NCBI GenBank assembly: GCA_903875575.1
Contig: CAIQWJ010000028.1
Coordinates: 1 to 64,000 of the forward strand
Reading direction: 5' to 3'
DNA length: 64,000 bases
From: an uncultured Acidobacteriia bacterium
Lineage (GTDB): Bacteria > Acidobacteriota > Terriglobia > Bryobacterales > Bryobacteraceae
Shown in pieces: positions 4,720 to 29,501 of the stretch (its first letter is position 1; each line of letters opens with the position of its first letter). The notes under the pieces are model-generated. The model was not told the origin of the DNA. It was given only the letters and a program-made list of their open reading frames with translations, and did not search any database. A program made the translations under genes and the position numbers.

Positions 4720-4785
4720 CCAACTTACCCAATGATTCGCCGCGGTTCCGTGCGCGCCTCGTTCGGAACCGCGGCAAAATCAAGG

Positions 4786-5067
4786 ATGACGGAAGCGTTT
4801 CGTGATAAAATCCGGGCAGTGGACAAATCGACCCGATCCGGCGTATATGAAATCCGTGCCCAGTGGGACGGTGAGGCAGGCGTCTGGGTGGCTGAGAGCG
4901 ACGACGTGCCAGGCTTGGTTGCCGAGGCCGATTCACCGAAGGCGCTCCTTCAAAAGCTGAGAACCCTGATCCCCGAGTTGTTGGAACTGAACGGCGTCGC
5001 CCGCAGCCAGTCCACTAATTTCCGCGTGCTGTACCAGCATGAAGACAGTGGCGTTCTGACCTTCTGA
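4786..5067 (+). CDS. HicB-like antitoxin, DUF1902
   Basis: About 93 residues from ATG 4786; an alternative ATG at 4732 adds 18 residues without obvious family similarity. The core YEIRAQWDGEAGVWVAESDD, VPGLVAEADSPKALLQKL matches the DUF1902/HicB partial RNase-H fold. The stop overlaps the start of the HicA-like gene (TGATG), the normal tight coupling of such pairs. Order here is antitoxin first. No separate DNA-binding domain is evident at the C-terminus. Confidence 0.8.
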   Translation: MTEAFRDKIRAVDKSTRSGVYEIRAQWDGEAGVWVAESDDVPGLVAEADSPKALLQKLRTLIPELLELNGVARSQSTNFRVLYQHEDSGVLTF

Positions 5068-5261
5068 TGGCCAGTTACACCCCCGGCGTGAAGGAGGTTC
5101 TTCGTGCACACGGATGTTACTTCGAGCGGCCAGGCAAAGGCGACCACGATATCTGGTACAGTCCGCTCACGCAACGGCGTTTCCCTGTAGATGGCAAGAT
5201 TCTGTCCCGCCATACGGCAAACGCGGTGCTGCGGCAGGCCGGTATCCCGAAGCAATTTTGA
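5067..5261 (+). CDS. HicA family toxin
   Basis: A 64-residue double-stranded-RNA-binding-like protein typical of HicA mRNA interferases. It opens with VKEVLRAHGCYFERPGKGDH, contains the conserved GDHDIW with the presumed catalytic His, and ends with TANAVLRQAGIPKQF. Length and motif order fit an intact HicA. It overlaps its antitoxin by one base, so synthesis of the two should be coupled. Confidence 0.85.
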   Translation: MASYTPGVKEVLRAHGCYFERPGKGDHDIWYSPLTQRRFPVDGKILSRHTANAVLRQAGIPKQF

Positions 5262-5378
5262 AATGCCCGTAACCTGAGTTGCCCCTTTCCCCTTTTCCTC
5301 TGTGTCCTACGCGCGCTCTGCCTGCCCCCTTCCACCCCCCTCCCTCGCCACGCAACCCGATATGGAATCCTGAAATAG

Positions 5379-6776
5379 ATGCTCAAACTTCTCGCCCTGA
5401 ACCGTGGTGAAATCGCGATCCGTATCATGCGCGCCGCCACCGAACTCGGCCTTCGCACCGTCGCCGTCTACTCCAAAGAAGACCGCCTCAGCCTCCATCG
5501 CTTCAAAGCCGACGAGGCCTACCTCATCGGAGAAGGTCTCGGCCCCGTCCAGGCCTACCTCGACGTCGAAGGCATCGTCGCACTCGCCAAAGAAAAAGGC
5601 GTCAACCTCATTCACCCCGGCTACGGCTTCCTCTCCGAAAACCCTGCCCTGCCCCGCGCCTGCGAACGCGCCGGCATCACCTTCGTAGGCCCGTCCGCCG
5701 AACTCCTCGAACTCCTCGGTGACAAAACCGCCGCCCGCAAACTCGCCGAACGCGCCGGCGTCCCCGTCGTCCCCGGCACCGATGACCCCGCCAACGTAGC
5801 CAAAATCGGCTTCCCGCTCATCATCAAAGCGTCGTTCGGCGGCGGCGGTCGCGGCATGCGCGTCGTCGAATCGCAGGACCAGTTTCAGGGCAAACTCGAA
5901 GAGGCCACCCGCGAGGCCGCGGCCGCTTTTGGCAACGGTGCCGTCTTCCTCGAACGTTTCATCCGCCGCGCCAAACACATCGAAGTCCAGATCCTTGGCG
6001 ACCGCCACGGCAACATCGTCCACCTCTACGAACGCGATTGCTCTGTTCAGCGCCGCCACCAGAAAGTCGTCGAAGTCGCCCCGGCCGTCGCGCTCCCGCA
6101 AAAAGTTCGCGACGCCCTCGCCGAAGCCGCCCTCAAACTCGCCCGCGAAGCCGGTTATTACAACGCGGGCACCGTCGAATTCCTGGTCGACGCCGAATCC
6201 GGCGAGTTCTACTTCATCGAGGTCAATCCGCGCATCCAGGTGGAACACACCGTCACCGAACTGGTCACCGGCATCGACCTCGTGCGCTGCCAGATTCTCG
6301 CCGCGCAGGGCCACAAACTACACGAAGCCCCCATCGGTCTCCCGCAGCAGAAGGACATCCCGCTCTACGGTTACGCCCTGCAATGCCGCGTCACCACGGA
6401 AGATCCCACTAACAATTTCACGCCCGATTATGGCCGCCTCCAGACCTACCGTTCCCCCGCCGGCTTCGGCGTCCGCCTCGATGGCGGCTCGGCTTACAGC
6501 GGCGCGACCATCACGCCCTATTACGATTCCCTGCTCGTCAAAATCAGCGCCTGGGCCGCTGAGTTCGACCAGACCTGCAACCGTGCCGACCGCGCTCTCC
6601 GCGAGTTCCGCGTCCGTGGCGTCAAGACCAACATCCCGTTTCTTGAAAACGTCGTCAACCACCCGGATTTCCGCGCGGGCAACGTCACCACGGGATTCAT
6701 CGATCAGACCCCGGCGCTCTTCGCGTTCTCGCTACGCAAAGATCGCGCGACGCGTCTGCTGACTTATCTTGGCTAA
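5379..6776 (+). CDS. pyc: Pyruvate carboxylase N-terminal part (biotin carboxylase), ends at in-frame TAA
   Basis: The 465-residue biotin carboxylase half of pyruvate carboxylase, catalysing ATP- and bicarbonate-dependent carboxylation of biotin. Visible motifs are LALNRGEIAIRIMRAA at the start, the ATP loop KASFGGGGRGMRVV near residue 150, KHIEVQILGD, and FIEVNPRIQVEHTVTE near residue 285. The frame stops at TAA 6774-6776, immediately after RLLTYLG. Codons after the stop continue the family sequence in the same frame (IVNGNPEV, then KQLLDELGPKKFA), running straight into the carboxyltransferase ORF. The gene therefore looks like one pyc with a single nonsense codon rather than two designed genes. 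Confidence 0.93.
   Translation: MLKLLALNRGEIAIRIMRAATELGLRTVAVYSKEDRLSLHRFKADEAYLIGEGLGPVQAYLDVEGIVALAKEKGVNLIHPGYGFLSENPALPRACERAGITFVGPSAELLELLGDKTAARKLAERAGVPVVPGTDDPANVAKIGFPLIIKASFGGGGRGMRVVESQDQFQGKLEEATREAAAAFGNGAVFLERFIRRAKHIEVQILGDRHGNIVHLYERDCSVQRRHQKVVEVAPAVALPQKVRDALAEAALKLAREAGYYNAGTVEFLVDAESGEFYFIEVNPRIQVEHTVTELVTGIDLVRCQILAAQGHKLHEAPIGLPQQKDIPLYGYALQCRVTTEDPTNNFTPDYGRLQTYRSPAGFGVRLDGGSAYSGATITPYYDSLLVKISAWAAEFDQTCNRADRALREFRVRGVKTNIPFLENVVNHPDFRAGNVTTGFIDQTPALFAFSLRKDRATRLLTYLG
6774..6776 (+). other. In-frame TAA inside pyruvate carboxylase
   Basis: This stop lies in phase with both halves of pyc; the 150 nt between it and the next in-frame ATG (6927) are an exact multiple of three and encode conserved linker sequence. 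ATG 6927 has no recognisable Shine-Dalgarno. Confidence 0.9.
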
Positions 6777-6926
6777 ACCATTGTCAATGGCAATCCCGAA
6801 GTAGCCGGCAAACCGCATCCGAAAGAGTTCCGCGCCGCGCCAGTTCCACCGCACATCGCAACGCCCGCGCCCCGGGGCACGAAGCAGCTTCTCGACGAAC
6901 TCGGCCCGAAGAAATTCGCGCATTGG

Positions 6927-8792
6927 ATGACCGCGCAACCCGGTCTCCTCATCACCGACACCACCTTCCGCGATGCCCACCAGTCCCTCATGGCCACCCG
7001 CATGCGCGGCGCGGACATGCTGGCTATCGCCAACCACGTTTCGCACCGTCTGCCCAATCTCTTCAGTCTCGAAATGTGGGGCGGCGCGACGTTTGACGTG
7101 TCCATGCGCTTCCTGCTGGAAGACCCGTGGCTGCGTCTCCGCAAGCTCCGCGAAGCCGTCCCGAACATCTGTTTCCAGATGCTGTTCCGCGCTTCGAACG
7201 CCGTCGGCTACACCGCATATCCCGATAACGTAGTGCGCGAATTCGTCCTCGAATCAGCCCGCCAGGGCATGGATATCTTCCGCATTTTCGATTCGCTGAA
7301 CTGGCTCCCCAATATGCGCGTCGCCATGGAAGCGGTGCAGGATACTGACCGCCTCTGCGAAGCGGCCATCTGCTACACCGCCGACATTCTCGATCCCTCG
7401 CGCACCAAATACTCGCTCAACTACTACGTCCGCATGGCGAAAGAGCTCGAAAAGATGGGTGCGCACACCCTCGCCATCAAGGACATGGCCGGTCTGCTGC
7501 GTCCCTACGCCGCCGAAGTTCTGGTGGGCGCGCTGCGCAATGAAATCGGCATTCCGATCCACTTCCACACGCACGATACCAGCGGCGTGAGCGCGGCCTC
7601 CATCCTCAAGGCCGCCGACGCCGGCGTTCACGTCGCTGATGCCGCCATCTCCTCCATGAGCGGCCAGACCAGCCAGCCCAATCTCAACTCCATCGTCGCC
7701 GCGCTGCAAAACACGCCGCGCGCTACCGGTCTCGATCTCGACGCCCTCAACCAGTGCGCCGATTACTGGGAAACCGTTCGCACCTGGTACTCGCCCTTCG
7801 ATACGAGCCCGAAGAGCGGCACCGCCGAAGTCTATCTCCACGAAATGCCCGGCGGCCAGTTCACCAATCTCAAGGAACAGGCCGAGTCGCTGGGCCTTGG
7901 CCCCAAGTGGCCGGAAATCGCCCGCATGTACCGCGACGTGAACATGGCTTTTGGCGACATCGTCAAGGTCACGCCGTCGAGCAAAGTGGTCGGCGACATG
8001 GCGTTGTTCCTGATCAGCCATGACATGACGATCCAGCAGTTCCTCAGTCTGGAACCAGGCCATAGTGTTTCCATTCCGCACTCCGTTGTCGACATGTTTG
8101 AAGGTTCTCTCGGCGAGCCCGAAGGCGGTTGGCCGGAGCACGTGAAGCAGATCGTACTCAACGGTCGCCACGCGCGCGCCGGACGTCCCGGCGAACACCT
8201 CGCACCTGTCGATTTCGATGCGGTTCGCACCAAAGTGGAAGCGGCCATCGGTCGCAAACCGGCGGATGACGAAGTCCTCAGCTACCTGATGTATCCCGAG
8301 GTTTTCCTGAAGTTCGCCAAGGCCCGCGCGGCATACAGCGATGTGGACGTACTCCCGACGCCGCCGTTTTTCTACGGCATGCAGAAGGGCGATGAAGTGG
8401 CGATCGACATCGAGCCAGGCAAGACGCTGGTGGTGAAGTTCCTCGCAGTGAGCGAGCCGCATCCCGATGGCACAAGGACAGTCTTCTTCGAAATCAACGG
8501 CCAGCCGCGTGAAGTCGATGTGCGCGATAAGAGCCTGCTGTCGACAGTCGCCGCCCGCGTGAAAGCAGATCCGGCAGACCTGGGCCAGGTTGGCGCACCA
8601 CTGCCAGGTTTAGTGACGGCAGTAGCCGTCAGTCAAGGCGATGCAGTGAAGAAGGGCGACAAACTGCTGGTCATCGAAGCAATGAAGATGCAGAGCACAG
8701 TCTACGTACCGAGCGACGGCAAGATCACAAAGCTGGTAGCCCACATCGGCATGCAGGTCGAAGCAAAAGACCTTCTGGCCGTAGTGGAGTAG
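6927..8792 (+). CDS. pyc: Pyruvate carboxylase C-terminal part (carboxyltransferase and biotinyl domain)
   Basis: The first available start gives 621 residues. The protein opens with LLITDTTFRDAHQSLMATRM, the classic pyruvate carboxyltransferase opening with its metal-binding Asp. HFHTHDTSG near residue 213 supplies metal-ligand His residues. It ends in a biotinyl domain with the lysine motif EAMKM. It would carboxylate pyruvate to oxaloacetate. With the upstream part and linker the unit is about 1,136 residues, matching single-chain enzymes of about 1,150. The start is uncertain: coding similarity extends upstream of ATG 6927 to the TAA. Function depends on readthrough, reinitiation or the TAA being an error. 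Confidence 0.9.
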   Translation: MTAQPGLLITDTTFRDAHQSLMATRMRGADMLAIANHVSHRLPNLFSLEMWGGATFDVSMRFLLEDPWLRLRKLREAVPNICFQMLFRASNAVGYTAYPDNVVREFVLESARQGMDIFRIFDSLNWLPNMRVAMEAVQDTDRLCEAAICYTADILDPSRTKYSLNYYVRMAKELEKMGAHTLAIKDMAGLLRPYAAEVLVGALRNEIGIPIHFHTHDTSGVSAASILKAADAGVHVADAAISSMSGQTSQPNLNSIVAALQNTPRATGLDLDALNQCADYWETVRTWYSPFDTSPKSGTAEVYLHEMPGGQFTNLKEQAESLGLGPKWPEIARMYRDVNMAFGDIVKVTPSSKVVGDMALFLISHDMTIQQFLSLEPGHSVSIPHSVVDMFEGSLGEPEGGWPEHVKQIVLNGRHARAGRPGEHLAPVDFDAVRTKVEAAIGRKPADDEVLSYLMYPEVFLKFAKARAAYSDVDVLPTPPFFYGMQKGDEVAIDIEPGKTLVVKFLAVSEPHPDGTRTVFFEINGQPREVDVRDKSLLSTVAARVKADPADLGQVGAPLPGLVTAVAVSQGDAVKKGDKLLVIEAMKMQSTVYVPSDGKITKLVAHIGMQVEAKDLLAVVE

Positions 8793-28181: not shown

Positions 28182-29501
28182 CTACTGTTTCGTTTCCGAA
28201 TCCTGCCGCACTACGGTGCCGCCCTTCATCACGAATGTCACTCGACGCAGTTCGGTGATATCCGTCAGCGGGTCGCCGCGGACGGCTATGATGTCGGCGA
28301 AGCGGCCTTTTTCGAGTGAGCCGACCTGATCCTGCCAGCCCATCAGTTCCGCCGCGCTGGTTGTTGAAGCACGGATGGCTTCGAGTGGCGTGAGACCGAG
28401 GCGCACCAGCGATACCGGTTCGCTCGCGTTCTTGCCCTGCTCGACTCCGGTGGAGGCGTCCAGTCCACTGGCGAGCCGGACGTGCGCATCCTTCGCCATG
28501 GCGATTTCGGCGCGTAACGCCTGCATGGTTGGTTCCAGTTCAGCCTGGCGAGCCGGCGTGGCTGTTTCGTAACCATCGGAATATGCGGCCGAGGTGGGGA
28601 CAAGGAATGTGCCGTGCTGCGACATCAGGGTGAGAAGTTCGCGGTCGACGTCTGTACCGTGCTCGATGGAGTCCACTCCGGCCTCGACGGCGTTGCGGAT
28701 GCCCTCGCGCGTGGTGGCGTGGGCGGCGACGCGGTGGCCTCCTTTGTGCGCCTCATCGACAATGGCGCGCAGTTCTTCGGGCGTGAGCGTCGCGTGCAGA
28801 CTGCGAGTGGTGTTGGGTGAAGCGATGTCGAGAAAATCGGCGTAGACTTTGATGAGGTCGGCACCGTAGAAGATTTGCTCGCGGGTGGCGCGGCGAGCTT
28901 CGTCGGCACCGGTCACCATCTGGGCACCGCGCGGGAAGGAGGGGACGTCGGGCGAGAGGCGTTCGGGAAAGTAGCCGCCGGTGGCGGCGATGGCACGGGT
29001 GGCGACCTGCATGCGCGGGCCTTCAACAAGGCCGCGGATGATGGCGTCGCGCAGGGCGACGTCGGCGTAGCCGGAACCTTCGTTTTCGACATCGCGCACG
29101 GTGGTGAAGCCGGCACGCAGGGTGTCGCGAGCGCTGGCTGCGCCTTCGAGGGCGCGGTAGGCCTCGGACTTGCCTGCAAGTTGCAGGATGTATTTCTCAT
29201 TTTGGTTGCCCTCGGCCATGCGGGCCATCAGGTGGGTGTGGGCGTCGATGAGGCCGGGAAGGAGGGTGGCTGCGGGCAGGTCAATGATGGCTGCACCGGG
29301 GGGAATGGCGAGGCCGCTGCCTGCATCGGTGATTTTTCCTTTGGCGATCAGGATGACGGGATTCGGGATGTAGGTGCCGGAAGTGACATCAAGCATGCGG
29401 GCTGCGCGGACGGCAGTGACGGGAACTGGATTCTGCGCGGCCAACCGCGTGGCGCAACAGAGGAGAGTCAGGGTGACGTAAGCGACGACATTCTGCGGCA
29501 T
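28182..29501 (-). CDS. Exported amidohydrolase
   Basis: A 439-residue metal-dependent hydrolase of the imidazolonepropionase/Xaa-Pro dipeptidase-like branch. A signal peptide starts at ATG 29501 (NVVAYVTLTLLCCATRLAAQ). The metal motif LLPGLIDAHTHLMARM lies near residue 80, and HRVAAHATTREGIRNAVEAG, VDSIEHGTDVDRELLTLMSQ supply further His ligands. LEKGRFADIIAVRGDPLTDI closes the fold. These exported enzymes cleave peptides or cyclic amides; the substrate is unknown. Confidence 0.9.
   Translation of the reverse strand: MPQNVVAYVTLTLLCCATRLAAQNPVPVTAVRAARMLDVTSGTYIPNPVILIAKGKITDAGSGLAIPPGAAIIDLPAATLLPGLIDAHTHLMARMAEGNQNEKYILQLAGKSEAYRALEGAASARDTLRAGFTTVRDVENEGSGYADVALRDAIIRGLVEGPRMQVATRAIAATGGYFPERLSPDVPSFPRGAQMVTGADEARRATREQIFYGADLIKVYADFLDIASPNTTRSLHATLTPEELRAIVDEAHKGGHRVAAHATTREGIRNAVEAGVDSIEHGTDVDRELLTLMSQHGTFLVPTSAAYSDGYETATPARQAELEPTMQALRAEIAMAKDAHVRLASGLDASTGVEQGKNASEPVSLVRLGLTPLEAIRASTTSAAELMGWQDQVGSLEKGRFADIIAVRGDPLTDITELRRVTFVMKGGTVVRQDSETKQ

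Follow-up and report, generated by a model that had tools for sequence, protein, structure and literature searches.

Why should a gene for pyruvate carboxylase (PYC), an enzyme that refills the central metabolic cycle, be interrupted by a stop codon when it is otherwise intact and conserved? The question is raised by a locus at positions 5379-8792 (+) of a 64,000-nt stretch (the window) of contig CAIQWJ010000028.1, assembly GCA_903875575.1, from an uncultured Acidobacteriia bacterium of the family Bryobacteraceae. The stop, a TAA at 6774-6776, may best be explained by a nonsense mutation of recent date in a PYC that was no longer needed once phosphoenolpyruvate carboxylase (PEPC) was present, that is, by a gene displacement caught early, and from the sequence comparisons given below we assign this reading a probability of about 0.5. 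Throughout, G000 denotes the window's own genome, and G012, G006, and G008 denote its nearest relatives.

The TAA splits one PYC frame, the sole PYC gene of the window, into a 5' open reading frame (ORF) at 5379-6776 and a 3' ORF at 6927-8792 (621 aa) that share the same frame. The parts of the locus were as follows.

5379-6776, + strand: 5' part of PYC, a complete biotin carboxylase domain of 465 aa (TIGR01235 positions 1-472; 2dzd_A; Pfam Biotin_carb_N, CPSase_L_D2, Biotin_carb_C)
6774-6776, + strand: in-frame TAA, a sense codon in relatives and Glu in five PYC-bearing congeners (sequence and relatives' alignment)
6777-6926, + strand: linker with PYC coding and no in-frame ATG, GTG, or TTG (dN/dS against G012 of 0.014 over 49 codons)
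6777-8792, + strand: 3' part of PYC, 671 codons with carboxyltransferase, PYC_OADA, and biotin carrier (TIGR01235 positions 475-1143; 2qf7_A; Pfam HMGL-like, PYC_OADA, Biotin_lipoyl)
5354-8788, + strand: extent of DNA homology with the PYC locus of the nearest relative G012, at 83% identity and with differing flanks (DNA comparison)

Read as a single gene, the frame scored 1713.8 bits against the NCBIfam pyruvate carboxylase model TIGR01235 (cut-off 1114.45) and contained exactly one TAA, with no further stop or frameshift. The 5' half aligned to 2dzd_A over residues 3-450, and the 3' half aligned with the solved PYC 2qf7_A over residues 495-1162. Domain order and sequence matched those of single-chain PYC (TIGR01235; solved homologues 2qf7, 3bg5, and 4qsh) over the whole length, and the biotin carboxylase, carboxyltransferase, PYC_OADA, and biotin-carrier domains all lay in one frame; the window gene differed in that its ORF was interrupted by the TAA between the biotin carboxylase and the remainder. 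The frame stayed open for 671 codons beyond the stop, and the ATG at 6927 was the first ATG, GTG, or TTG in it, leaving a 150-nt open linker that encoded TIVNGNPEV...KQLLDELGPKKFAHW. The ORFs and the model coverage thus bore out the first-pass annotation, which had placed both halves, the stop, and the linker in one frame with conserved PYC sequence.

The codon at the junction was then compared among relatives. A PYC match extended over the junction in 23 of the 41 genomes compared, and a stop was present there in G000 only. All 22 other genomes had a sense codon. In the five congeners that carry PYC (G012, G006, G001, G003, and G010), it was GAA or GAG, and the remaining 17 also showed sense. 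A collection of named genomes supplied 80 PYC loci, one of which matched only from a point 3' of the junction; the 79 spanning loci were all free of a stop and encoded Glu (24), Asp (34), Asn (17), Gln (3), or His (1). By title, 35 of the 80 belonged to Acidobacteria groups, the closest ones among them, and the remainder were mostly Verrucomicrobia-type metagenome-assembled genomes; three were, by length, the same contigs as those of G003, G010, and G012 and are therefore not independent evidence. The stop is private to G000 among the genomes compared. Such a codon comparison in close relatives had been suggested by the first-pass annotation, which had also named an established two-gene arrangement at the same point as a possible counter-observation. 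Since all compared relatives carried sense codons, no such arrangement was seen, in either the 22 genomes or the 79 spanning loci.

Apart from the stop, little sign of decay was detected. The dN/dS of PYC against G012 was 0.027 overall, 0.019 in the 5' half, 0.032 in the 3' half, and 0.014 in the 49 linker codons, values that are rough because synonymous sites were near saturation (dS 1.17). When amino-acid changes were polarised, 16 clear and 8 probable changes fell on the G000 side and 9 and 6 on the G012 side, with 10 assigned to neither; the excess of 24 over 15 was not significant (p 0.20). At PYC columns invariant in the other 22 sequences, one change was found in G000, as compared to 0, 1, and 2 in G012, G006, and G001 respectively. 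Assuming neutral decay since the stop arose, its age would be below about 1% (from the amino-acid excess) to 6% (from the lack of a second stop) of the branch that leads from the split with G012. With both halves conserved, the stop is very young, or false, or tolerated by expression, and each of these (a fresh mutation, an error, and continued expression) would account equally well for the undecayed sequence.

A second source of oxaloacetate was found in the same genome. G000 encodes a PEPC (PF00311) as an unbroken 940-aa ORF on the 192-kb contig C33, with a score of 857.8 bits against an equivalog cut-off of 815 and an alignment that reached the last residue of the solved PEPC 1fiy, which we take to be the E. 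coli enzyme. The motifs TAHPTE, GYSDSNKDGG, FHGRGGTVGRGGG, and the C-terminal NTG, to which catalytic roles are ascribed, were all visible. The gene closes a cluster of the order lysR-dabB-dabA-cysD-purE-purK-PEPC, in which purE was named from sequence and position. Like the known DAB/MpsAB bicarbonate uptake systems, the cluster has DabA (PF10070), a DabB-like membrane protein, and a LysR regulator; what differs from the known systems is that the DAB genes adjoin PEPC in five congeners, with PEPCs of two lineages about 33% identical.

L114:1849-12223, L115, L116, L192, and L193: lysR-dabB-dabA and PEPC loci in five congeners (neighbour genes)

The PEPCs of G014, G015, and G018 were 77-78% identical to that of G000 and adjoined the same genes. 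The PEPC of G009 was only 33% identical, fell on another branch of the PEPC tree, and likewise adjoined lysR-dabB-dabA, which indicates that two distant PEPC lineages joined the same cluster. In the stretches compared from G001, G003, and G005, lysR-dabB-dabA occurred with no PEPC beside it. In G017, a short PEPC fragment was located mid-contig (L200:6797-7224), on a contig other than that of its DAB genes, and is possibly a remnant. Outside the genus, DAB genes were found near PEPC in none of 11 loci (from 20 PEPC genomes, 1-8 kb of flank). The nearest PEPC to the G000 lineage was that of G208, from another genus, at 83% identity, but this fork was weakly supported, and the tree did not settle the direction of transfer. 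A set of 21 genomes that included 13 of this genus yielded no archaeal-type PEPC as a further source of oxaloacetate.

That the PEPC gene came from a contaminant was considered and judged unlikely, because C33 flanks resemble G012, with 90% identity for the sulfatase and 78% for the PQQ region; of the cluster itself, only a short cysD stretch matched G012, at 74%. A ribonuclease J tree united G000, G012, G006, and G008 (100/99), and neither PEPC nor DabA was found in the latter three. A clean empty site for the cluster was sought in G012 and not found, the two flanks being on different G012 contigs. PEPC and PYC both take bicarbonate as substrate (PMC10880623), and DAB/MpsAB pumps serve non-autotrophs as well (PMC6689103). 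The DAB pump may supply bicarbonate to PEPC. In the titles and opening abstract lines of open-licence papers, no report pairing DabA with PEPC was found, nor any treatment of the present combination among those on PYC with pseudogenes, displacement or exclusion, on Acidobacteria with both enzymes, or on DAB/MpsAB.

We further examined how the two enzymes are distributed. Of the 19 genomes of the genus, 6 had PYC and 6 had a PEPC match (in G017 the fragment only); G000 alone had both, with its PYC broken. Across the order, PYC scored above the cut-off in 162 of 257 genomes and PEPC in 26. With PYC counted as lacking where the best match was worse than 1e-170 (83 genomes; 12 of the 174 others were under the cut-off), it was lacking in 21 of 26 genomes with PEPC versus 62 of 231 without (Fisher p 1e-7, uncorrected for kinship). 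Counted by genus, taken by eye from the genome-level results, 7 of 11 PEPC genera had no PYC in any genome, versus 15 of 73 genera without PEPC (p 0.006). The two enzymes tend towards mutual exclusion in the order as a whole. Separately, 62 of the 257 order genomes had neither enzyme, five of them from this genus with at least 90% completeness and at most 5% contamination.

Taken as a recent loss, the break would have the following consequences. A single recent nonsense mutation would have ended PYC after its biotin carboxylase domain, and the cell would make a free 465-aa biotin carboxylase domain with little or no carboxyltransferase and biotin carrier, so that PYC would no longer make oxaloacetate. 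The loss would be tolerated, with the intact PEPC, encoded together with a DAB-type bicarbonate pump, making oxaloacetate from phosphoenolpyruvate (PEP) and bicarbonate. The locus would then record an early stage in the replacement of PYC by PEPC; in the order, most genomes with PEPC have no PYC. It had been expected on first pass that the loss would matter for oxaloacetate supply; that expectation is not supported, given the intact PEPC in G000 and the distribution of PYC in the genus. Of 18 congeners, 13 yielded no PYC, and the same held for 9 when only the 12 with at least 90% completeness and at most 5% contamination were counted.

Since another enzyme that does the same work is encoded intact in the genome, the break is probably either a recent tolerated loss or a sequencing error, and the latter is the main rival to a real mutation. 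Under it, the TAA would be an error of the assembly consensus or a variant of a minority strain, and the living gene would be intact. One base change suffices to explain the TAA, and the halves and linker have every appearance of being functional; amino-acid changes are not significantly in excess. The stop lies, however, 6.8 kb inside a 128-kb contig, and codon usage, scanned over 484 kb of G000 (the window, L114, and 20 further stretches), argued against frequent errors. The scan flagged 17 in-frame stops flanked by coding signal to either side, PYC included. By Pfam, 11 of the 16 others had different families on the two sides and resembled ordinary gene boundaries (P-II then GlnD, or pseudouridine synthase then pyrophosphatase, for example), none had the same family on both sides, and 5 of 16 are undecided, because a family was recognised on just one side in 3 and on neither side in 2. 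In the 484 kb, homology bears out an interruption for PYC alone. A generally error-ridden assembly is unlikely, which makes nothing certain about one base, and we regard the error as unlikely though by some way the most serious of the rivals. It would be very unlikely, by contrast, that the gene still works, either as a two-subunit enzyme through re-initiation at ATG 6927 or through readthrough of the TAA. Selection on PYC seems undiminished, and the break lies near the subunit boundary of two-subunit PYC (subunit B model NF006761; 2-oxoglutarate carboxylase small subunit 7kct), presumably the enzymes named PycA/PycB; ATG 6927 would yield a subunit-B-like protein, residue 8 of the ORF meeting position 5 of NF006761. 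Unlike in those enzymes, the 150-nt coding linker would be left untranslated, no relative compared shares the arrangement, and the top-scoring models for the window gene were single-chain PYC. The Met of ATG 6927 occurs in unsplit congeners too and hence did not evolve for a split. Sequence prediction gave the second part no start with a ribosome site of its own: anti-Shine-Dalgarno pairing in the 20 nt before ATG 6927 was -1.0 kcal/mol, versus -3.3 at the gene's own start, was exceeded in 28 of the 33 long ORFs of the window, and ranked 14th among the 27 internal Met codons of the gene, as is typical of an internal Met. None of the features of recoding was detected, whether conservation of the stop, a tRNA able to read it, or RNA structure beyond it. 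The stop occurred at this junction in no compared relative; no stop-reading tRNA was among the 41 tRNA genes found in the incomplete G000 assembly, a set that itself looks incomplete since no tRNA-Ile was present by name; and no stabilising structure was found 3' of the TAA, where the RNA folded less stably than shuffled sequences (z 1.59). Among the options that the first-pass annotation had listed, a fresh nonsense mutation and a sequencing error thus survive, while a young gene split and readthrough found little support from relatives, tRNAs, ribosome-site pairing, and RNA folding.

The nonsense mutation could also be real and unrelated to PEPC, with PYC dispensable for other reasons such as PEP carboxykinase (PEPCK) or the growth substrate. 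We hold this to be improbable, but several observations lend it weight and tell against a role for PEPC in the loss. Neither enzyme was found in 8 of the 19 genomes of the genus, so that PYC loss needs no PEPC, and GTP-PEPCK was present in 18 of the 19. G253, which had no PEPC match, has a PYC (L256:4236) with a single in-frame TAG inside its carboxyltransferase part (HTHD*SG); it and G000 were the only genomes with in-frame PYC stops among the matches listed, and broken PYC was not significantly commoner with PEPC (1 of 5) than without (1 of 169, p 0.057). Four genomes (G153, G154, G181, and G182) have PEPC plus a stop-free PYC match, that of G182 being cut by the contig end, showing that PEPC does not force the loss of PYC. 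Within the genus, the exclusion of PYC and PEPC was not significant (p 0.13), and the nearest relatives are imperfect, G012 and G006 being 10% and 6% contaminated and G008 83% complete. Against a mutation unrelated to PEPC stand the order-wide figures, in which PYC was lacking about three times as often with PEPC as without it, and the four-genome clade, in which G000 alone has PEPC and alone has the stop, yet no PYC was found in G008.

The proposed displacement by PEPC resembles non-orthologous gene displacement, in which a gene becomes a pseudogene after the gain of an analogous enzyme: G000 has a broken old enzyme together with an intact analogue for the same product. The displacement is read here from distribution and not from a timed series or experiment. 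As a wider and more tentative proposal, a lysR-dabB-dabA cluster joined by PEPC at least twice, from two distant PEPC lineages within one genus, might displace PYC, and G000 might show this process just beginning, with PEPC already there alongside a PYC broken only lately. What we see is probably a familiar type of event, though in an informative setting, and not a novel type of gene. If the stop is real, G012 and G000 would form a natural before-and-after pair for the replacement of an oxaloacetate enzyme in an uncultured group, and the bicarbonate pump would be a possible partner in the swap of PYC for PEPC. If it is an assembly error, the locus would advise caution in calling metabolic gaps from draft genomes.

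Elsewhere in the window, a second interrupted gene at 28818 was rejected as an antisense artefact. DNA homology of 5354-8788 with L185, L186, L187, L194, and L195 was confined to about the PYC gene itself, and the window ORFs of at least 90 aa that adjoin PYC were not found beside PYC in any of the five congeners that carry it. The one exception was in G006, where a PQQ-dehydrogenase-like gene lies about 1.9 kb past PYC. Directly upstream of PYC, at 4732-5261 (+), were a DUF1902 gene (PF08972), which we take to be HicB-like, and a HicA toxin gene (PF07927).

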